Shown here in pieces: positions 2,115 to 30,962 of a stretch of 64,000 nt of DNA. This DNA is from Halichondria panicea (lineage: Eukaryota; Porifera; Demospongiae; Suberitida; Halichondriidae): assembly GCF_963675165.1 (NCBI RefSeq), contig NC_087383.1, forward strand, positions 6,116,839 to 6,180,838, given 5' to 3'. A program made the translations under genes and the position numbers. How positions within the stretch are numbered: the stretch's first letter is position 1; each line of letters opens with the position of its first letter. The notes below the pieces were generated by a model that did no database searches, had not been told where the DNA came from, and saw nothing but the letters and a program-made list of their open reading frames with translations.

Positions 2115-2784
2115 ACTGGCTGCTACTGTATAGACTGCATTATAGGCGCATTATCGAATATAAGCATATAGAGCTCTGCTACGCTAATAATCCAGTTTCT
2201 ACGGTATATCACTTTACCTTTCTATATCCCAACCCATTGCGTGTACGTCTCAAATGATACTGCATGTGATGAAAGCTGACTCGCAAGCTGGCTAGAAAAT
2301 AAGCATGCAAGCAGGAAACCCTAACTGGATCAATTATCATTATTATGTTACAGTTTATTTTACAGTTCATTTACATCATTTAAATTCATAATTATAAAAA
2401 CAATCATTCATATCGACCAGGAACTTGGAATAAAAGGACCTCATCCATGTCTCACATTCTCTCAGCATGATCAGACAAGGTAACAGCATGCCCAGAGAGT
2501 CCTTACAATTGGATATCACCATCTTTATAGCTATCATACACTATACAAGCTAACTAGCTCATAGATAAACAAAATTAGCTGAATCAATTCTGACTAATAA
2601 CCTTCGCATATAATTATGCGATATAATTGGAAAAGCACTTCAATTCGAGAATAAAAAGTCTGCAGTTGAGCATGCGCTTAAAATAAAGATGCGCTTATAG
2701 TCAAGTAAGCGCTAATAATCCAGTTTCTACGGTATGTCATTACAGTGCATGCATGCATGCATGCAAATAATTATACTAACTTAC

Positions 2785-3495
2785 TATTGATATCCACATT
2801 GCACTCTGTGATGAGGTACTTGATAGTGTCCAGCTTCCCCTCTCTGACTGCCACTCCCAGTGGAGTTAGTCCATCCCTGGTCACAGTTCCTATAGTGGTG
2901 AGTCAGGACAGTGTCAGGAATGCACAACACATTGTCTCAGAAACCATAACTAATGAACGTCACCAACAATTACTATTACCTGAACACCTCTATACATGTC
3001 CCATACTGCACCTACCCAACTATACCCACAGTAAGTGGTGTATATATAATAATACTCAAGACATACACAATGAGTTATGAGGGGCCTAACATTGCATAAG
3101 GTATAAGATATCATTGTTGAGACATACACAATTAATGGGTAGGTAGAAAGGTAAAGTGATGAATGCCATTAGCAATCAGCATTATGATACACTCACCATT
3201 GACATCCACATTGCACTGATTGATCAGATAACGGACAATTGCAGTGTACCCAAACTTGCAAGCAAAGAGAAGTCGATTGTTCTCTGGAGAAAACGATAAA
3301 AAGTGGTTAATATGAAGCACTATAGACCCTTGTGAGGGGTGGATTAATACTATAACAAAAGCAGCATCTGTTGTTAGTCAGTAAATGACCGCCACTCAGT
3401 GTACACCTAATAATAAATCTCACCGTTAACTTTGGTGGTTACATCACCTTTATCTTTCAGTGTCAGCTCTAGGATACGAACTACTAGTGCAGAAT
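2785..3495 (-). CDS. Ankyrin-repeat exons, module 1 (three exons)
   Basis: Three minus-strand exons, in transcript order 3495-3424, 3283-3197 and 2889-2785. The first reads SALVVRILELTLKDKG, the second NNRLLFACKFGYTAIVRYLI followed by NQCNVDVN, the third DGLTPLGVAVREGKLDTIKY followed by LITECNVDIN. The second and third have the TPL..A...G...IV.YL pattern of ankyrin repeats. All exons begin and end in phase 1, so any can be spliced to any other. The donors are GTGAG or GTAAG and the acceptors CAG or TAG. The same three exons recur at 7,152-8,086 and 57,076-58,556. The gene must continue leftward out of the window. Expression is unknown; no frameshift is seen in these exons. Confidence 0.7.
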
Positions 3496-8099: not shown

Positions 8100-9182
8100 A
8101 ACAATTGCACTGTGAATATACTACACTATAGCTAATAATTATGTACATGTTCAAAATAACATGTTCAGCACCATGCATGTGTTTATACAACACACTGTAA
8201 GTTAAGTTATTGGGTGCACTGTCGAGTGGACTATTTCAATACAGCGGTAAATATGTATTGGCTCCAGAAGCTATATGATAATTATGGCTTCATCGATTTA
8301 TGTTGTTAAGTAACTTTTAGCTATAGCTCTTTTTGGGGGGTTAGCCTGATCTATGTAACATGTCTCACATTCTCTCAACGACATCATGCAGACAAGGTAA
8401 CAGCATAAAATTACAGAGAGTCCTTCCAGATAGACACAGCAAAAACACTAGGTTATGTTTTATGAGATGCATCATCGTATTTTAGTGTTAAAATGACAGA
8501 AATTCTATGAAATTTCAAAAGATACGTTTCATTTGACATTTTGTAACGAATGTGCATATCTGGAAGGACTCTCTCCAAGGACGCCCTTGGTTAAATAATA
8601 AACAAGGGCGTATACAGAAAAGAGGGCATACAACTCGATATCATGCATGCACCGAAATTCAATATAAGTCGAAGTGATACATGCAGACTAAGCTTGAAAG
8701 ACAAAACGTTTTATAATTATACATGCAGATCGATTAATGTAAAAGAGAAAATGTAAATGCTATAGCTATTATCATGTTATAGTGTGTTCGATTCTGAATT
8801 CTTGATGCGTTCGTGTTTTCTGTACATGCACAGAGGACAGTTGGGTTCGACGGGGTAGGAAAACGTCAGAGTATATAGTATGCATGTTCTTTCGAATGTG
8901 CCTCCCCATGCAGAAGCCGTTAGCTGCTAGATGCTGAGTTGCATGCCCTCTCCCACCTTCAGCAGTCAATACTTCCTTGATATAGCACGTAATTATAGCT
9001 ACAACCATAAGCTAGCTATAGCTCATGATAAACTGACAATTCTTCGCATAATAATTATGGGAAAGCAGCACTTCAATTCGAGTACAAAAAACCTGTAATG
9101 CTAAAAATAACTATTAATACGTTTATAATCAAGTAAGTGCTAATTCTACGAAACTACGTAACTTAAAGGTACATCCATTATA
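8100..9182. other. Intergenic repeat-derived DNA
   Basis: No coding exon recognised. About 9,030-9,130 resembles 2,581-2,700 (shared words CTTCGCATA and CACTTCAATTCGAG). The ORFs here lack any recognisable domain or repeat conservation. Confidence 0.5.
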
Positions 9183-19506: not shown

Positions 19507-19866
19507 ATCAGAAGTCCTCCCATTACTTACTGCAAAGGCTGTCAGTCGCAGTACAGCGTGGAAATGCGGCCTCAGTGATGGGCACAATGGACTCGCAGAC
19601 CCTCTCCCTCGAAATATTGGAACTTTGAATTACTACATTATTTATTGTTGTACGAATTACACCTGGTCTGTACATGTATATATATATTATATAATTATAT
19701 TATTAAACGAACAGGAAACATAATTATTCATGTACATTTCTAGCAATATTGAGTGTTTGACATAAGCACATGTACATGCATGTGTCTAGCCCTAACCACT
19801 TATGTACGTTAGTTCAGCTATGATAATACGGCCTTAAAGTTTTACATGACACACACACAGACTTAC

Positions 19867-20159
19867 CTAGGTCACACTGTCCAGTTGCCACCAGCAACTG
19901 GACACACTTCAGGTGTCCCTTGTAGCAGGCCAAGTACAGGGCAGTGTCCTTATCAGTATCCTGTACATTGACATCGATGCCATCTTGCTGTGTGAGTATC
20001 TTCACTACATCAGGGTGACTGTTCCAGCATGCCCATTGGAGAGCGGTCCATCCACACCAGTCCGTCCAGTCTACAGGAGCTCCTCTAGCCAGCAGCCTCT
20101 CCACCTCGTCCACACGACCATCACGGGAAGCATCACAGAGTTGCTGACCCAGATCATGA
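19867..20159 (-). CDS. Ankyrin-repeat exon, isolated
   Basis: A 293-nt minus-strand exon between a TAG acceptor and a GTAAGT donor. It encodes QQLCDASRDGRVDEVERLLA, then TALQWACWNSHPDVVKIL and TALYLACYKGHLKCVQLLVA: three ankyrin repeats with the TAL..AC..GH...V..L pattern. Not a close relative of the small-exon modules elsewhere in the window: here one exon holds three repeats. No matching upstream or downstream exon was found within several kb, where repeats dominate, so it may be part of a gene with long introns or an orphan. The frame is intact. Confidence 0.75.
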
Positions 20160-20259
20160 CTACAGTGTATTGTGGGAGGAGGTAAACAATGAAGGGCAGA
20201 AATTATCATTATTATGTACCTATACAAATGACAATGAGTAATCTCAGTCTCCAATTAGT

Positions 20260-21263
20260 GGACTCTTAGGTGGTGAGGAGTGAGTGGGTGTATTATAGAG
20301 GATGTGACTGTATTGACCACAATCTTAGGAGCTAGCCTTCACTTGCTAGCTATACCCACATCTAGACACCAGAGGAGCCTGCAACTAATTAACCATCGCT
20401 CAATTAGGTCACTCATTAGTTTCTGAGGTTGTCATCTAAATAAGTAATACAGTCATCTTTGCTTCTATAGCTAGTAAGCACGAGTTATACTATTATACAG
20501 TATAAACAATACATGTAGTGTTAGGAGTATACATTATGGTCACAGTCATTATTGGAGTGTCTGGATTCATAGATAAGGAGTACTGTATTCATTGTGGCCT
20601 CTGAGATATGGTCACCTCAATGTACACAGCCATTCCACCAAATGTTCACCACTTAGTAAACCATAGATTATAAAGTTAGAGAAGTTACATTGAATCTGCA
20701 ATGGATCCTCGAAACTATTTATGTTACTTATGAACGAGGCTGTTAAGCAATTTTTTGCCGGGTAACTCCATTAAAATAAGAAAGTTGTGTTTCCTCGAGA
20801 CATCATCTGTTTATAACATGCCTAGTCCGTCAGCCACATGTAGTACTTATAATGACTGACAACGTACACCCAGTAAAAAAGATAAATTAGCTAGTAAAGT
20901 CATAAGTTCCCAAGGCTGTTTTAGAGCATGCTAGTTATAACTACTACAATAGGTATAGACCTTGAAATAATTATAAGTAAGTTGCACAGACTAAAGCAGC
21001 TATTTGTAGTTTATTATGCACTGTGTGTAGAAATAGGTATTGTTGTGGCTCGATTAAACCACAGCGTAGCGCGGATGTTACTCGAGGGTACCTTCGTTTC
21101 CAACCCCTTTAACCCCTCAATCTATGGTAAAACATAAAAACTCATGATCAGAGTGTTCCAGGGTTCAATGAACTATTTGTTGTGTGGGTTCTAATGAATA
21201 ATTAAGAATGGTATGCAGAAACATTAAATTTTTTACAGAGCAAATCTAATGTACCTATCAAAG
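20260..21263. other. No gene recognised
   Basis: AT-rich, non-repetitive at sight, no convincing exon. It is the left flank of the HECT/integrase element. The 83-codon minus ORF at 21,282-21,533 lies in the inverted repeat and is not protein-coding. Confidence 0.4.
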
Positions 21264-21407
21264 TGTCGCCCCACTACCCTCCTAGGAGGGAGGGGTCAGG
21301 CTAACATGGAGGATTTGACCATAATTATACCCCAGGTCAAATTCCCCACATGCATGGGGGAGGATTCTTTGTTCAAATACCCTAATTTCCTCAGTCACCA
21401 TGTATGT

Positions 21408-21612
21408 GGTGTTATCTGTGTCAAAATGACTATGACAATGTACACACGTGTGCATTGATATGCACGTTACAATAATTATGCATGTCACCATGCATATGCA
21501 CGTTACAATATGCATGTCACCATGCATATGCACGGTACAATATGCATGTCACCATGCATATGCACGTTCATATTATAAATAATACGCATGGCGATACATG
21601 TTACAATAATAC
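21408..21612 (+). repeat. Left terminal inverted repeat of HECT/integrase element
   Basis: Unique 41-bp block at 21,408-21,448 followed by three to four subterminal units of about 35 bp (TATGCACGTTACAATATGCA, CATGTCACCATGCA). Matches the right repeat in inverted order. Subterminal tandem repeats of this sort commonly bind transposase. Confidence 0.8.
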
Positions 21613-21985
21613 ATCAACATTCATATACATTACAGTCAGTTACCATAATTATTATAATTATTATGCATCATAATTATTATAACCATACACATTTCAATAT
21701 ACATTCTGGTTTCACCAGCAAGACTCCATTTGGCCTTGAAAAAACACCGCAATAATTATAACTACCTGGAGTAGGTGGGACACTAGTCTCGCAGGCCATA
21801 TTTTAAAAACTGATACTGACACCTTGATTGTACATGCGCAGGGTAAAAATATAAGCCCACTCCACGTGTACATGCAGAGTATCAGACCAGACCATTCTGA
21901 TCTTGTTCCCGATTACCTCCTCATCAATTGTCCAACCAAAGAGCAATAACACAGAGATCTGAACTACTTTTGCTATAGCGTTTGA

Positions 21986-24713
21986 ATGGCTGACAAGATT
22001 ACTCGTGCCAATAATCTTTTACGGCAAGCAGTTGACCTATTGAATCCGAATCCTAATCCTCCGAATACAGGTGTACCGGTAGGTGACAGTCGAGCTAGTC
22101 ATGACAGTGGGGAACCCAGTTCCAGTGTTCGTATACGGAAGCAGGTTCCAGCTCCAGCTCCAGCTTTGGCCTTTGTACTAATTTACAGCCAAGGTAGGCT
22201 ATACTCGTAGGGTTTGGTGCACTATTTTATGTTGGTTGTAACTTCTAATACTAGCCATTACTTCTAATTCTGTAGTAATTTTAACGTGCAAGATATGCTA
22301 CGTCCAAGGGCAACAGGCAGACGAAGAAGTAACCCATATGAAAAGAAGCGTGGAGGTTTAACCTGGACGCACAAGTTTGTGTGCCTGGGTCAATACTGTA
22401 GAACTTGTGCCGACTCCACAGGATAAGTATACCCTTAAGATTGCTGAGCTCGGAGAAAAAAAGTTGGTATTTAAGCTAAGTGGAAGTTACGCCTATCTGA
22501 AAGAAGTAATTGTGCAAGCCTTTCCCTTATTAGAAAAAGCTGGTGGGTTTGAGCTTAGTAGAACGAATGGTCCTTACAGCAAGCAATTGGTTCCGATTGA
22601 TTGTACCTTCCTCACGTCTGTTTCCAAGCTCAAGCAGTTTGTCGAACAAGCGAGAGTTTATATCCGGCCCCTTCAAGCTGACATCATCGACATATTTGGG
22701 CAGCCTTGTGATGCAGCAAATGTGGTTAGTAGTAAGAGGGTATGTGGGTGCTAATATAATAATTATACTTACGCAGCTTGAAGACGAGCCGAAGGAGAAG
22801 TGCCTGGAGTGTGGGAAGGAAGTAGACCTCTCGTTTTTGAAAACTCATATAGAAGTTTGCAAGAAAGGAGAAGGAAATGGAAGGGTGTGAAATATGATGT
22901 CCTTATTTTTGCTTTGTTTTTAAAAATTGTCCCCATGCAGGGAAAGTTCGGATCCTGATGTTGAACTTCCACCAGCACTACCCCCAATACTACCACCATT
23001 GTCTGAACTACCCCCATTGTCTGCGTCTTTACGTTACAGGTATAATAAACTTGTGTTCAAAGGAAGAAACAAAGTGCAAAGTGCAAACCTCCTGCACTCC
23101 CAGTGTTTGGGGTTTATATAAATAATTCTTTAATTACAGGACAAATGTTAGCTTGTCCACTCCAGCAGAAGCTCAGCAGTCTACTTATTCACCTGTTGGT
23201 TATTCGTAAGTACCATATCCAGCTGTGTTAGGGATAAGTGTAATATGCATATTGTTTGTTTAGGGCCTATATTAACCTTACTGAGGAAGATCTTCCTGAC
23301 GATGATCCTGATTTTCAAAGAGCATTAGAAGCAAGCTTTTCATCGCAAGCTGAATCCTCAGCACCTATTCCGTAAGAATTATATCTGCTGTGTACAGTTT
23401 AAAATTCACATTTTGCTATTATAGGTCTACAAACACTGCGCACATTCTGCAAGAACACATCAATAGTTTAGAGATTTTGTCTGATTTTGATGATGCTCAT
23501 CAATTGGTTACTGTGAGACGCAAACATATTTGGAATGACGTCAAAAGGTGTTTCAGCAAATCGTACACAAATCTTTCTCTACCGTTAAGAGTTACATTAA
23601 TTTTGTTGGGGAGTCAGCTGCTGATGAAGGTGGTCCAAAACGAGAGTTTTTTAGGCTTGCTATGGAGTCCTGTTTGAACGATCCGTCCTTGTTTTCTGGT
23701 CCTGCATTCTTAAAAGTACCTCTTCACAACACTGCTGCTCTCTTGCAGAGGCATTTTAAATACGTCGGCAACGTATTAGCGATGTCTCTTATTCAAGGAG
23801 GGCCTGTACCTATTTGTTTCGCAAGTTGGGTCTATGAGTATATTGCAAACGGTCTGGAACGTATGGAGATTAATGATGATGAACTTTCTTCTGATTCAGT
23901 GAAAGTTTTTCTGAAACAGGTAAAATGTCATTTTTTTGGTTGTGATAATCATGATAATTGTCTTTTGTGTAGGTAAAAGATGCTAACGACGTTGACATTC
24001 TTCATGAGGTTCTGTCACGAGATGAAGCAGACGTTGTGTTTGCTAGTGGTTTTGCTAAGCCAATAAACCAGGTGACCTTTGACGATATTTCAAGTATTTG
24101 TCAAATGGTTCGTATTCATTCATCTGTGCTGCCCGTAAAGGCTGAGTTAGATCAAATCAAGGAGGGTTTAAGTCTCTTCAGTGTTGCGGGCTTCATATCA
24201 CAATCACCCTCTATGCTTAAAGAACTGTTTGTGTCCCGTGTGCAGCCACTTGCACTTTCACTCACTAATTTCTTGGAGTTGATTGAATACAAGTACTCCA
24301 GTATAGGTTTAAATATGAGAGAGAGGGAGGAGTCCACTACGATGCACTGGAATGAGCTGTTAATAGAGGTTGATAACAAAATGGCAGGTATGGCAATAGA
24401 ATAATTATAATTTTGTAAATCATGTTTGGTATTTTCTTTTTCAGAGTGTAACGTTTACTCCATTGATGGGGAGCATGAAAATCGATCCCTCACATTTGAA
24501 GACTTCCTAACATTTGTATCTGGAGCAAATCGCATACCACCAACAGGGTTTGAAAAACTAATCACGATTGATTTCAACGATACTTCTTTGTACCCTACCG
24601 CCTCAACCTGTGGATTAACGATGTATTTACCCACCAAATTTGACACCTACAGTGACTTTAAGAGTGCTATGATTGAAGGACTTGTTAGTGGATTTGGATT
24701 TGGACAGCCATGA
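21986..24713 (+). CDS. UBZ-UIM-HECT E3 ubiquitin ligase, nine exons, probably frameshifted
   Basis: Exons about 21986-22193, ~22291-22735, 22777-22883, 22941-23038, 23140-23205, 23264-23371, 23415-23919, 23973-24387 and 24445-24713. Exon 3 encodes KCLECGKEVDLSFLKTHIEV C, a C2HC (UBZ-like) zinc finger. Exon 6 encodes DDDPDFQRALEASFSSQ, matching the ubiquitin-interacting motif. Exons 7-9 form the HECT domain: VGESAADEGGPKREFFRLAM is its N-lobe signature, LYPTASTCGLTMYLP holds the catalytic cysteine, and the chain ends QP as a normal short HECT tail. HECT enzymes take ubiquitin from an E2 as a thioester and pass it to a substrate. The layout resembles the G2E3-like HECT proteins that are multicopy in fish and cnidarians. 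Two probable one-base frame breaks (near 22,390 and 23,550) suggest a decayed copy or sequencing errors. A poly(A) signal AATAAA lies at 24,834. Confidence 0.85.
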
Positions 24714-24833
24714 AGCATTAAATTAGTAACGTTTTTCATGAACATGCAGTTATTCTCCTCACCCCCATCATACTATGATAACCCAATTGTGGTTCAGTCC
24801 CCATGATTACAATGTGTTTGTTCTTGTCTTGCA

Positions 24834-24839
24834 ATAAAA
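24834..24839 (+). promoter_or_regulatory. Polyadenylation signal of the HECT gene
   Basis: AATAAA about 120 bp after the HECT stop, just before the convergent 3' end of the integrase at 24,882. Confidence 0.5.
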
Positions 24840-25051
24840 ATTAACTATCAAATTCATCAGCTAAGTATATCTAATGCTCGTCTATACATACATAGTGATA
24901 CCATAGTTGTTGTCATCCTCAAGTGGATCCACATTATACCGACTTAGTTGCTTCCACAGGGGGTACTACCACCACATTGTTATCGACTCTAGATGGTAAT
25001 AGTGCACAAAGGTCAACTCCACAGCACCCACGAGTAGAACCCTGAGATAAT

Positions 25052-25580
25052 GAAAGCACCGCAGGTGCTGATGCCTCGGTGAAGATGCCAAAGCTACATA
25101 ACATAAAGCTACTGATAATTTTGCTGCATGCAAAAACTCACAGAGTGGGTAATGATCGACCATTATTATTGTTAAAAACGATCTATGCCAAAAGTTCAAG
25201 TCTAAAATTAATGGCTGCATTAGCAGAGCCTTGCAGCTCTCTTCTCACTCTTGCAGCTACCAATAGCTAGCGTTTTAGTGCAGAGCTAACTACTAAGTAG
25301 AGTAGCAACACTCGGTAAACAAGTTTGGCTACGTGCTCTTCTGAAAAGGCTGCAATGGCATTCCAAGTAGGTATAACTCGAGAACAAAGCATTATTTTGC
25401 AAATCCACGAATTAAAATCCAAGTAAACATGACTAGAAGCCTATAGAAACTCTTACTTGCACTTAATTCATCCTTGAGTAGCTGTAGCAGTCTACACAGA
25501 CAGACAGACAGACAGACAGACAGACTCACAGACACACAAACACACTACCGTATACCTCGCTTGCGCATGCACACCGAGGC
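25052..25580. mobile_element. GCGAGGTATACGG repeat inserted in integrase intron
   Basis: Inverted family copy flanked by ATAAT on both sides (25,047-25,051 and 25,581-25,585), apparently a 5-bp target duplication. It fills nearly all of the intron 25634-25042. Removing it leaves an intron of roughly 60 nt. Confidence 0.65.
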
Positions 25581-26628
25581 ATAATAAACCCACTGTACAT
25601 AATGTATAATTATATATACTGATAACAAACTTACTTGTGGTAGGGTTTGTTGTAACTGAGCGTAGCGAATTGTACCAGCAAAGAAGAGTTGAGCGGGTGA
25701 ACGGTTTGCACATGAACTGAGTGGATGATTAATATAGGCTTGCCTAAAACTATTCAAGCTTTGTTGAATTCTGGGCTGATATATAAAGTGTAAAACAAAC
25801 AAATGCAACTCGTTAGAAGGGTCAAGAACACCACAAGTTTCAAGGTGCGTAAAAATACTGTAGAATAGACAGAGGCATCCTTGGTAAACATCTCTCCAAA
25901 GCCTTTCAATCCTCTGATTGTGTACTGATCGACCCATAATCATTCCTTGGCCTATTCCTACATGCTGCAAAGACCACATATGTTCAGCAACCCCGATATT
26001 TTTGCCCCCCATATCAGATCGAACTTTGAGTGGATTTCCATAAGTACCAACAGCCTCAATGAAGTGTACTTCAACACTTCACCAGAAGTATTAGTAGTGG
26101 AGCACTTTAAGTAGACAGGTAGCCTTGAGTAACCGTCTATACCGCCATGGACTACGAATATCCATCTATAAGACATGATTTTATTATTATACAGACAAAC
26201 ATTTTATAACACCTCTAATTTTATATACCTCGATACAAAGGATAGCTACATCGCACTAGTTTCATTAAAGTCTATTTGCGTTAAGTTCGGCCCCAGTGTG
26301 GTCAATTATGGCTTCATTTATACTTTATGTGGTTGACAATACATGGAAAGTGCTAACTTTTAGTTTAAGCTTTCAGATCAACTACAGCAAAAAATTACGT
26401 TTTTTTTGTTCAGTTCATAAAGGAAGTATAATTAAGAGGTGTGAAAAAGTATTTGCAAAATCCGTGAATTCTATCAAACATACCTTACTAATTTATGGTG
26501 TCCGTCGATATGCCATAAGCTGCTGGAACGTCATAAACACGTCTGCGTACACTGGTAGAACGCCTAGCAGCAGTACCAACAGGATCAGTTCGCCGTAAGG
26601 ATTCTCTAACCCTAATTTGTTGAACAAT

Positions 26629-29519
26629 CACAGCAAAAACTGCTAACAAATACGGGAATTACGGGATGATCGTTAATGTCACACACACGGTACAGGTCAC
26701 GGACTTTCACGGGGGAGTGGTTTAACGGGAACCGTAGACAACCGTTGCCGTGGGGGAGGGGCTGGACGGGCAACCGTATGAAGACCGTGCAGTCTGACCA
26801 CATTAGCTGACGGACAATAAAGAGACACCGTATATCTATAGAGTTTTGCTACTATATAATTATGTGCCCACTTCATCAATGGCTATACTAATAAAAAAAA
26901 CAGGGTGTAAATCTAGTTGATCAAGACGAGAGTGGATTAGAGCCACAACCAAAGAGGACCAGATCTAGAGCTGCTAGATCTAGTGTCCTGTGTCCTCACT
27001 TGCGATCAGCACATATCCAAATCTAGTTATTACCGTATTCAGATACAGACCTGAGTGACCATGACTTGCCTGGATAGCTATATTCAACTGGAGTTGTACT
27101 GTCGACTCGTTATAATAATAATAAACTTGCACTGTTTTATAATAAATTATTATTCTTATACGTACTGATAGGAGGAGGAGGAGGAGGAGGAGCTCGTAAT
27201 TGCGCATGCGTAGTATGAAACCCACATTTTAAGCGGGATTTGGAGAAGCTGAGGACTTGGATTTTAAGATCAAGAGCCTTCACGTTGACGTTGAGCATGA
27301 GAGAGCCGGTTCTCTAGCTTTATGGAAGGGAAGCCTGTACGTATCTGTTCATGAACCAGCCAAAAAGTGTGTTAAGACAAGTACGTATGAAATATTAAAT
27401 ACGTGTGTAAAGTACGTGTATTGGGTCTTGTGTCTGTCAGGATGTTTCATCCTTCGGCAACAGCCTGTCAAGATGTATCATCTTTCGTCAGGTGGCCCGT
27501 CCATGTATACACTGTTTATGAATATTAATTTAGCCGTGTGTGTGTCACGTAGAGTGTGTGTATAAGTGTATTGGGTCCTTGTGTCTGTCAGGATGTTTCA
27601 TCCTTCGGCAACAGCCTGTCAAGATGTATCATCTTTTGTCAGGTGGCCCGTCCATGTATACACTGTTTGTGAATATTAATTTAGCCGTGTGTGTGTCATG
27701 TAGAGTGTGTGTGTAAGTGTATTGGGTCCTTGTGTCTGTCAGGATGTTTCATCCTTCGGCAACAGCCTGTCAAGATGTATCATCTTTCGTCAGGTGGCCT
27801 GTTCATGTATACACTGTTTGTGAATATTAATTTAGCCTTGTGTGTAAGTGTATTGGGTCCTTGTGTCTGTCAGGATGTTTCATCCTTCGGCAACAGCCTG
27901 TCAAGATGTATCATCTTTCGTCAGGTGGCCCGTCCATGTATACACTGTTTGTGAATGTTAATTTAGCCTTGTGTGTAAGTGTATTGGGTCCTTGTGTCTG
28001 TCAGGATGTTTCATCCTTCGGCAACAGCCTGTCAAGATGTATCATCTTTCGTCAGGTGGCCTGTTCATGTATACACTGTTTGTGAATATTAATTTAGCCT
28101 GGTGTGTGTCACGTAGAGTGTGTGTGTAAGTGTATTGGGTCCTTGTGTCTGTCAGGATGTTTCATCCTTCGGCAACAGCCTGTCAAGATGTATCATCTTT
28201 CGTCAGGTGGCCCGTCCATGTATACACTGTTTGTGAATATTAATTTAGCCTTGTGTGTAAGTGTATTGGGTCCTTGTGTCTGTCAGGATGTTTCATCCTT
28301 CGGCAACAGCCTGTCAAGATGTATCATCTTTCGTCAGGTGGCCCGTCCATGTATACACTGTTTGTGAATATTAATTTAGCCGTGTGTGGGCAGTTAGGAT
28401 GTTGCATCGTTTGTGTCAATTATTGTGTACTAATGATAATTGTATTGAAATGGGTTCTTTTGTCTGTTTAAATATCTATTTTCTCACTCTAAATGTAGAT
28501 GCTCATGTGATCAATCAATGACAATCGCGTACTGGGCGTGGAATCAAAAATATGATGTGTCATGACAGTGGACATTACAGGTAATGTTTACACATATTAA
28601 ATACATAATTGATAAAGTTGCTCACTATACAGGCACCCATTAACGTGTTGAAAACGACTCGTTGGACAATCATAATTATTATGATGATTTAATAATAGAA
28701 TCTCAGGTGAGATATTAATGTCAGTGTTCAAACATAATTATAATAATGTGCTTGTGTATTACTAGTACAGTAATGTTGCAGACGTAAACCAACGTCAGTT
28801 CTTATGATCGTTCTCAAGGCCTGGAAACTGCTATTAAATCATAAAGGTACTATTTCTCACAATGTAATTATTGTCTACCGTATACCTCTTGACTAGGTAT
28901 CGATGTCGATCTCTCAGATATGTCGATTCTGTTAAATTACCGACCGGTAAGCTAAAAGCGAGCTAAGTTTGAAACTCTGTAATGGCATACTTCTTTTCTC
29001 ATGCAGGCTACCATGATCATACAAGTCATTGAAAGTGAACATAATGATGGTAAATAATACAAGTCAACACTAGGTAGCCTTTAAGTCACTCATTTTGTGT
29101 CCAGCTAGCTGTTGTCTTGTGTTTCTTGTCTTGTTTCTTTCTGATGCATGCTGTATATATAAATTATATTTTTGATTGAACTTTGAACTCAACTCTAAAT
29201 AATTACAATGACATCATTAACTAGTACTAGCTGTAGCTAGCCAACGATCGATTACATAGCATGAACGGTCGACAGTCTATCAGCTCGTTTGTGTGATTTA
29301 TACGGTAGCTATCACGGTCCATCACGGTAGGTTGACGGGTGTAGACGTGTAACAAACGGGGACTTTGGCGGGTACCGTCTGAGCGTCCCCGTCTAATTGG
29401 TCCCAATCCGGGATTACACGGTGCCCGTTTATTGAAACACGGGATACCGTTTATTGACCCGTTTCATCTAATAGTACGGGCGCACACTGTACCCGCATTT
29501 GTCAGTAGTTTTTGCTGTG
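26629..29519. mobile_element. CACTA-like DNA transposon inserted in the integrase gene, 2,891 bp
   Basis: Left end CACAGCAAAAACTGCTAACA and right end (reverse complement) CACAGCAAAAACTACTGACA are inverted repeats, flanked by AAT on each side (26,626-26,628 and 29,520-29,522). Removing the element plus one AAT rejoins the integrase frame exactly (RSRGI to IVQQIRVRES), which proves the borders. A 3-bp target duplication and CAC termini fit the EnSpm/CACTA superfamily. As in CACTA elements, the subterminal 200-300 bp on both sides are packed with short ACGG/CCGT words. No transposase was recognised; it carries a minisatellite (27,420-28,380). It appears non-autonomous. Confidence 0.85.
27420..28380. 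repeat. Minisatellite with 131- and 151-bp units, seven copies
   Basis: The word GATGTTTCATCC starts at 27,441, 27,592, 27,743, 27,874, 28,005, 28,156 and 28,287, giving spacings 151, 151, 131, 131, 151, 131. The 20-bp difference is a GTGTGTCACGTAGAGTGT-type insert. Units are almost identical, so the array is recent or homogenised. A degenerate unit follows to about 28,400. The Cys-rich ORFs here follow from the repeat. Confidence 0.95.
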
Positions 29520-30309
29520 AATGATTCCCCGTGATCGTAAATGTCCATGCATCATTTTGCTGCCACAACGAGGATGATCCATAGATATCTCCATAACAAT
29601 TTCATCGAGATTGCAATCACTAATGCAGCAGTAGTTATCTGAATATGAGAGCCCATTCTGTCGCATTCTTCTACATACAGTGCTTCTAGACACACCTAGA
29701 ATTAGAGCAATGTCGAAAGATGTGAACTGGAGATTCATAAGGGTTTCAATTATAGAGGGTGAAATTTCAAACAATGGCCTCCCTGGAATTGAACCAGACT
29801 CTTCACAATCTTGAAACAGCTCCCAACACTCAAACACCTTCTGCAAAACTTGAGGGCAAATACGGGTGGAATCAGAGCTCAAATCTAACTCTATCAAGTC
29901 GGCATATATACATTCGACATGTATACACACATAATCAATAGAATCATTGTTGCTGAGATCGAGCTGCCCTATCAACAACATGAGTGCGTTCAGTTTGCTT
30001 ATAATAGTTCTTCTTTCTGCTGCTGCTGTGTCCATAACTTAACTGTATATCTAGCTGCACTATACAACTAGCTGCAATGTAATTATAGTCTCGACTATTC
30101 TATATGATGAGCACTTGCACTTACATGTACTTGTCACTCTAATTAAATTTAGACTCCACCCACCCACCCTTTCCCCGCCTAGATCTACCAATTATTATTA
30201 AACACTGTAATGCATACATGTATGCATACAATACGCATGCCATTATAATATTATGCATGTGGATAATCATAATAATTGACATGCATATAGTGTAACCTAT
30301 ACCGTGTGC

Positions 30310-30600
30310 CTATTGTAACATGTAATTGCCATGCGTATTATTTATGTTGACATGCATAATTATTGTAATGTGCATATGAATGCTGACATGCATAATTATT
30401 GTAACGTGCATATGCATGTTGACATGCATATTGTAACGTGCATATGAATGCTGACATGCATAATTATTGTAACGTGCATATGAATGCTGACATGCATAAT
30501 TATTGTAACGTGCATATGCATGTTGACATGCATATTGTAATGTGCATATGAATGCACGGCGTGTGTACATTGTCATAGTCATTTTGACACAGATAACACC
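30310..30600 (-). repeat. Right terminal inverted repeat of HECT/integrase element
   Basis: Reverse complement of the left repeat, with more subterminal units (about six GACATGCATAATTATTGTAA / CGTGCATATGAATGC pairs) than the left side. The 41-bp unique block is at 30,560-30,600. Confidence 0.8.
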
Positions 30601-30729
30601 CCATAACCATGCACCAGTCACAGCCTCAAGCAGTTGTACAGTCTTTACTATGCAAGGCCAGGTCAAATCATATCAGTATGGGGCCAACATTTCAAGTCAA
30701 ATTCTCTCGTATATCCCGGGGGGAGCACA

Positions 30730-30962
30730 TTAGGTGCATAAAATTGCAATCTATTATTATTTCCTGAATCAGCAATCTCATGATGTAGTGTTTGATTGAA
30801 GCTGTACATGTATACTGATGTATCTTTGTCAACCCTGAATACATACACAGACAGCCCACCAGATATTATGTACACCTTGTAGCTGTACAAGCTCACCTTG
30901 TTGCCATTGTCCTCACCTTCCTGACCTGCCCTGGGGCGGAGCTGCAGCAAGATAGTGTAGCC
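30730..30962 (-). CDS. Unknown exon, cut by the right end of the HECT/integrase element
   Basis: After a CAG acceptor at 30,963 the minus frame is open: GYTILLQLRPRAGQEGEDNG, then NKVSLYSYKVYIISGGLSVY and VFRVDKDTSVYMYSFNQTL. Composition and hydrophobic alternation look like protein, not noise. The frame runs into the candidate end of the mobile element (GTGCTCCCCCC at about 30,720-30,729), and no clear continuation was found beyond 21,263. The family is not recognised. It could be an exon of the minus-strand gene whose other exons lie further right. Confidence 0.45.

Follow-up and report, generated by a model that had tools for sequence, protein, structure and literature searches.

The question raised by a locus of the sponge Halichondria panicea is why a gene for a HECT ubiquitin ligase and a gene for an integrase are found together between one pair of inverted repeats. 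The locus lies in a stretch of 64,000 nucleotides (contig NC_087383.1, positions 6,116,839 to 6,180,838), called the window in the following, in which the element spans 21403-30605 and is 9,203 bp long including a nested element. A first-pass annotation, made from the sequence, described the HECT gene (plus strand) and the integrase gene (minus strand) as a convergent pair and proposed that the two travel together as one transposon; the first statement is confirmed and the second supported. The explanation which we consider very probable is that the locus is a decayed DNA transposon of the IS3EU/GingerRoot type, and that in many families of this type in the genome the transposase usually lies tail-to-tail with a HECT E3 ligase which has diverged together with it and would be a working accessory enzyme.

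The genome searched comprises 131 Mb in 39 contigs. Only the best candidates are scored in the searches, so the locus counts are lower bounds; the searches for transposon-type HECT were done at E <= 0.01. A search with the integrase core gave at least 127 matches, which were merged to 112 loci, and Pfam HECT has at least 95 matches in the genome. When HECT was identified by the Pfam profile alone, the matches merged to 54 loci; 28 of these have an integrase no more than 10 kb away, and all 28 are convergent with it. Four transposon-type HECT queries gave 88 HECT loci, and by these queries a HECT lies no more than 6 kb from 72 of the 112 integrase loci, always on the 3' side of the integrase (66 convergent, 6 on the same strand). 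It should be noted that three of the 66 convergent C-lobe pairs are weak integrase fragments of 49 amino acids located beyond the HECT of a tandem subfamily, and that the HECT list used for the pairing count omits matches overlapping or adjoining those listed. A query with the HECT N-lobe adds three pairs, all convergent. The first-pass annotation had suggested adjacency and convergence in the rest of the genome as a check; 75 of the 112 integrase loci are thus paired, 69 of them convergently, while the 6 same-strand pairs and the 37 unpaired loci do not conform.

It is extremely unlikely that the element was inserted by chance beside a host HECT gene, or that such a gene was captured once, in the window copy. 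HECT exons are indeed common in the genome, as the Pfam matches show, and in some copies one of the two genes is missing. Against this stands the finding that a HECT is present within 1.6 kb of 65 integrase loci, where 300 random placements gave 0.43 on average and never more than 3 (approximate lengths were used for some contigs in the placements). It is also opposed by the copies bounded by terminal inverted repeats. The terminal repeat of the family L051 marks 12 head-to-head copies, a count which rests on 28 of 41 terminal-repeat matches. Nine of these are 2.9-5.9 kb long, eight containing both genes and one HECT only; the three short copies (0.6-1.3 kb) contain neither gene. Chance adjacency was rejected on the pairing excess and the two-gene copies taken together. 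According to the first-pass annotation, repeat copies lacking either gene would make the pairing accidental. Such copies do exist, but the gene-less ones look like ordinary non-autonomous short derivatives, as expected of any DNA transposon, and the test was too strict. A fourth, tiny L051 repeat pair at C12:6067063 is outside the copy count. Head-to-head copies of the window family, 1-3 kb long, are also present, and the integrase search lists no integrase in them.

The extent of the window element could be determined from its surroundings. When window positions 21250-21610 were compared with the genome itself, positions 1-151 of the query matched a repeat on chromosome 7, and from positions 150-159 on the query matched a terminal repeat present at other places. 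The right side behaves likewise, most of the chromosome-7 matches beginning at window position 30612. In 16 of 17 other copies of the chromosome-7 repeat the left and right flanks are joined directly; these are empty sites of the kind which the first-pass annotation had suggested looking for. The element boundaries are therefore 21403 and 30605, and the earlier ends, 21264 and 30729, were wrong in that about 130 bp on each side belong to the chromosome-7 repeat. The termini are TATG..CATA, a 6-bp target-site duplication, ACCATG, borders the element at both ends, and the inverted repeat arms (21403-21448 and 30560-30605) are 46 nt long and 98% complementary. The inverted repeats reported earlier were thus real, and the subterminal tandem repeats were recovered at both ends by a repeat search. 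The chromosome-7 repeat itself is seen in the window at positions 21250-21402 and 30612-30860, with at least 17 further copies on the same strand between 5.83 and 7.30 Mb of C7, tens of kb apart. The copies could represent large duplicated genes arranged as an array. An ankyrin-like open reading frame (19814-20254, minus strand) was seen by eye to the left of it in the window. The copy at C7:6269643-6270901 has a gap of 903 bp at the insertion point of the window element, which may mark a different insertion there or close by.

The ends of the element point to a known superfamily. All five families examined (L040, L042, L051, L052 and the family of the window) have TATG..CATA ends, and all five have 6-bp duplications: CTGGTA, GATACA, CTTTTT and CAGATG, read by eye, in addition to that of the window. 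Three of three integrases match the NCBIfam models for IS481 (1.7e-13 to 1.9e-15) and IS3 (2.5e-07 to 1.9e-14), in all cases below the model cut-offs, and the catalytic D, D and E are invariant in all 18 aligned integrase proteins. No Pfam zinc-binding integrase domain was matched at E <= 0.1 by either of two full-length integrases in a profile search, and two scans of viral contigs with the integrase gave no relatives. According to the main text of PMC10045372, IS3EU elements have TA..TA ends and usually 6-bp duplications, and GingerRoot elements mostly TA..TA ends and 6 bp. Because of the TA..TA ends, the 6-bp duplications and the IS481/IS3 matches, we place the sponge element in the IS3EU/GingerRoot type; it belongs to this superfamily, or works like it.

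The two genes have diverged in step. In 12 families the HECT distances and the integrase distances are correlated (Mantel r 0.627; none of 20,000 permutations reached this value), and the HECT tree and the integrase tree have five sister pairs in common. The integrase difference between L020 and L021 (286 of 408) was disregarded, as it is probably due to a misplaced coordinate. In all comparisons, and for both genes, the proportion of nonsynonymous differences (pN) is 0.16-0.39 and that of synonymous differences (pS) 0.64-0.97; these were used instead of dN/dS, which would not be meaningful with synonymous sites so near saturation. The difference indicates that both genes are constrained at the protein level. 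The HECT cysteine is invariant in all 11 aligned families. We infer that the gene encodes an active ligase which benefits the element, and is not passenger DNA.

A number of observations weigh against this reading. No HECT of either lobe was detected at 37 of the 112 integrase loci. Ten of these 37 integrases lie in nine loci (L039, L044, L047, L050 and L053-L057) which were searched with two HECT profiles, and none of the nine matched; of six control loci, six were found by the C-lobe profile and five by the N-lobe profile. In one of the nine, L053, the integrase frame is long and open (L053:2720-3287, plus strand), and the 3.3 kb downstream contain no HECT but open reading frames of unknown family. 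Another, L056, has other reading frames on the opposite strand: two of them face the integrase (940-1365 and 2136-2828, minus strand), have no Pfam match above cut-off and are possibly a different second gene. The remaining HECT-less loci inspected look truncated or decayed by eye. Nor is the pairing universal from the side of the ligase, since 21 of the 88 HECT loci lie more than 6 kb from any integrase found; one of these 21, at C12:4.33 Mb, stands alone between intact terminal repeats. In a subfamily formed by four of the six same-strand cases, which share one spacing and are typified by L058, the two genes point in the same direction; L058 itself (C4:2651500-2660500) has integrase and HECT in tandem about 3 kb apart, and further such loci are found on C4, C15 and C7. 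The trees also disagree in places. The sister pairs L022/L037 and L012/L031 have a support of 0.000 and 0.569 in the HECT tree, and L022/L037 are placed with L030/L043 by the HECT tree (0.996) and with the pair of the window and C15 copies by the integrase tree (0.870). Some HECT genes may have been exchanged between families; the HECT piece in the tree is about 70 residues long, and with such a piece an artefact and a real exchange look the same. Finally, a recruitment of the ligase by a UBZ4/UIM-like module can be put forward only faintly, as the motifs are present in only 3 of 9 loci.

If the ligase were passive cargo, amplified by the element, the different gene order in the L058 subfamily and the conflicting deep branches of the two trees would be easy to understand, and transposons do pick up genes. 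Passive cargo would decay, and for this reason we consider it quite improbable: the HECT protein is conserved although synonymous sites are near saturation, just as the transposase is, and its cysteine has been kept in all the families aligned.

An open ligase frame is present in L052, the C15 copy and a near relative of the window element, whose DNA outside the repeats is 66-77% identical to the window in blocks. The gene model constructed for it has nine GT-AG exons and codes for a protein of 767 amino acids without internal stops. The protein matches Pfam HECT with 1.1e-10, and both L052 and L045 are above the cut-off. The best match by sequence among solved structures is the HECT domain of E6AP (UBE3A), to which the L052 HECT part aligns through the region of the catalytic cysteine (6.1e-09); E6AP is however a cellular enzyme, and the similarity is only remote. 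A search with the L052 protein, in which the 8,000 best word-sharing candidates were scored, gave three matches, all from fish, which align with 54% of the query at 27% identity and have E values from 3.8e-27 to 2.2e-25. Two of them (P0126 and P0127) are named ‘G2/M phase-specific E3 ubiquitin-protein ligase’ and the third (P0128) is uncharacterized. The scores against the fish proteins are 110-114 bits, and those against reading frames of eight other HECT loci in its own genome at most 20 bits; the latter loci were read exon by exon, mostly as single exons, which partly accounts for the low scores. One long host HECT frame (L001) gives only 9 bits. With the reservation just given, this too argues against a host gene that happened to be adjacent. 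A tree that included five host frames is given no weight, two of them (L005 and L006) being poor test sequences and L003 and L004 nearly the same. A HECT exon of the L051 family matches ‘uncharacterized protein LOC135345463 [Halichondria panicea]’ in an exon search which gave five proteins. One of the five (P0122) and an integrase match (P0027) are both assigned to a contig of 3,160 bp of one source, which suggests a linked pair outside the assembly, the two contigs being matched by size only.

The HECT domain is the part that recurs in all the ligases compared, and the N-terminal part varies. Of 9 loci scanned, 3 (the window, L052 and L042) have a C2HC motif with the spacing of UBZ4 fingers, and a match to the UIM pattern is found in the window only. 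Neither pattern has a match on either strand of the 54 kb of the window outside the element. Motifs resembling the UBZ and UIM described in the first-pass annotation thus exist in the window copy, at 22801 and 23298, and are not a general property of the ligases.

How could a ligase help a transposon? In the proposed mechanism cutting and joining are done by the transposase, and the ligase would reach chromatin by its variable N-terminal parts, in some families by a ubiquitin-reading C2HC/UIM module. There it would ubiquitinate a host silencing or DNA-repair factor, which would allow transposition or the repair following it to proceed. We favour a host target on two grounds: enzymes with a presumed role against silencing are encoded by some other transposons, as stated in the main text of PMC12730594, and the N-terminal part varies. 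By our judgement there is an even chance that a silencing or repair factor of the host is the target. The ligase could instead act on its own integrase, limiting the transposase level or, once strand transfer is complete, helping to remove the transposase from the DNA and thereby allowing the gaps to be repaired. The co-divergence of the two genes would fit direct partners, and the smallest family seen, L051, with 3,950 bp between the repeat ends, seems from its reading frames to contain little beyond a HECT domain and the integrase. Linkage alone would also yield co-divergence, however, and self-degradation needs no variable N-terminal modules. We find this target rather unlikely, though it is the more serious competitor to a host factor.

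The window copy is dead, with frameshifts in both genes and a nested element, and this was missed in the first-pass annotation. By eye, compared with L052, two breaks are seen in the HECT frame, one near 22390 and one near 23600, and the integrase has a frameshift immediately ahead of the first catalytic D. The decayed pieces were analysed separately. The features are collected in Table 1, where the HECT cysteine and the three catalytic residues named in the first-pass annotation are all found again; its helix-turn-helix has Pfam matches, all of them below cut-off. The nested element interrupts the integrase between the helix-turn-helix part and the core. It has CACAG ends, a 3-bp duplication and seven tandem units of 131/151 bp, and resembles a non-autonomous element of the CACTA/EnSpm type.

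Table 1. Features of the element and its borders, in window positions
Feature	Position	Strand	Basis
Whole IS3EU-type element	21403..30605	.	Terminal inverted repeat (TIR) search and empty-site copies; termini TATG..CATA
Left target-site duplication ACCATG	21397..21402	.	Sequence read
Left TIR, including 32-bp subterminal tandem repeats	21403..21568	.	Repeat search
HECT ubiquitin-ligase gene, multi-exon, pseudogene here	21986..24713	+	Layout by comparison with 9-exon relative L052; start codon by eye
C2HC zinc-finger motif, UBZ4-type, spacing C-x2-C-x11-H-x3-C	22801..22860	+	Pattern scan
UIM-like helix motif	23298..23339	+	Pattern scan
HECT C-lobe; catalytic cysteine codon 24609-24611	24498..24704	+	Pfam HECT 8.2e-10 (exon), above cut-off
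Integrase core, open piece; D 26013-26015, E 25905-25907	25545..26078	-	Pfam rva_4 PF24764 9.1e-43
Codon of the first catalytic D, within WHIDGHHKL; reading frame differs from that of the preceding coding piece (by eye)	26504..26506	-	
Nested unrelated inverted-repeat element, 2,891 bp, TIR CACAGCAAAAACT.., duplication AAT/AAT; 131/151-bp tandem repeats 27406-28388	26629..29519	.	
Integrase N-terminal piece with helix-turn-helix (HTH), severed by nested element	29502..30038	-	HTH Pfam matches below cut-off
Right TIR, including 36/68/104-bp subterminal tandem repeats	30339..30605	.	Repeat search
Right target-site duplication ACCATG	30606..30611	.	Sequence read

Other copies are in a different state. 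No difference separates the C15 copy from the C11 copy in 312 and 423 bp (735 compared bases), which suggests that some families have probably moved recently. The C15 copy (L052:1559-7175) is inserted, as judged by eye, within a reading frame of a Tc1/mariner-type transposase. The L042 element lies inside further outer inverted repeats (L042:1190-1252 and 8741-8803), which are 63 nt long and 95% complementary.

The first-pass annotation knew of no described superfamily with this gene content. This was too strong for the backbone, which is that of a known transposon; the unusual part is the second gene, and for a HECT cargo we found no printed source. A search of the literature, with Repbase and most subscription papers outside its scope, gave no paper describing a HECT-carrying transposon. 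The pairing could already be catalogued in Repbase entries of IS3EU and be absent from papers, which would affect the novelty only. Repbase listed 45 IS3EU families, 17 of them autonomous, in 2022 (PMC10045372, main text). On the other hand no paper combining ‘IS3EU’ and ‘HECT’ was found, and the words ‘HECT’ and ‘ubiquitin’ are absent from the main texts of PMC10045372 and PMC12730594. We consider it possible, and somewhat on the improbable side, that the pairing is listed there.

It is unusual for a DNA transposon to carry an enzyme that can modify host proteins, and a ligase that diverges in step with the transposase offers a testable handle on escape from silencing or on the repair of insertions. 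Part of what is annotated as ‘E3 ligase’ genes in animals may belong to transposons. A tentative extension, which we hold to be slightly less probable than its opposite, is that HECT is an ancient and functionally required second gene of animal IS3EU from sponges to fish, acting in counter-defence or in the steering of repair; the fish ‘G2/M phase-specific E3 ubiquitin-protein ligase’ proteins would then largely be transposon genes.

Among the known systems Polinton/Maverick are large elements with DNA polymerase and capsid genes. The L051 element is so short that its reading frames of at least 60 amino acids leave little room for such genes, at which no search was aimed. Ginger1 and Ginger2 also have an integrase-related DDE transposase, and Ginger1 has an N-terminal HHCC domain; their duplications are 4 bp or 4-5 bp according to the main text of PMC10045372, compared to 6 bp in all five sponge families, and membership in Ginger1/Ginger2 was rejected on this size. 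Like the sponge elements, IS3EU/GingerRoot elements have TA..TA termini, a DDE transposase related to IS3/IS481 and, usually, duplications of 6 bp (PMC10045372); the sponge elements differ by an additional HECT ubiquitin-ligase gene. A parallel in organization is the TET-containing IS3EU of fungi. As described in the main text of PMC12730594 these have TAYGG..CCRTA ends, similar to those in the sponge, a 6-bp duplication and a second enzyme gene oriented opposite to the transposase, which there codes for an alpha-kinase, with a TET/JBP dioxygenase gene in between. By analogy the sponge arrangement can be regarded as the same idea, an IS3EU element with an enzyme as cargo, in which the enzyme is a HECT ligase.

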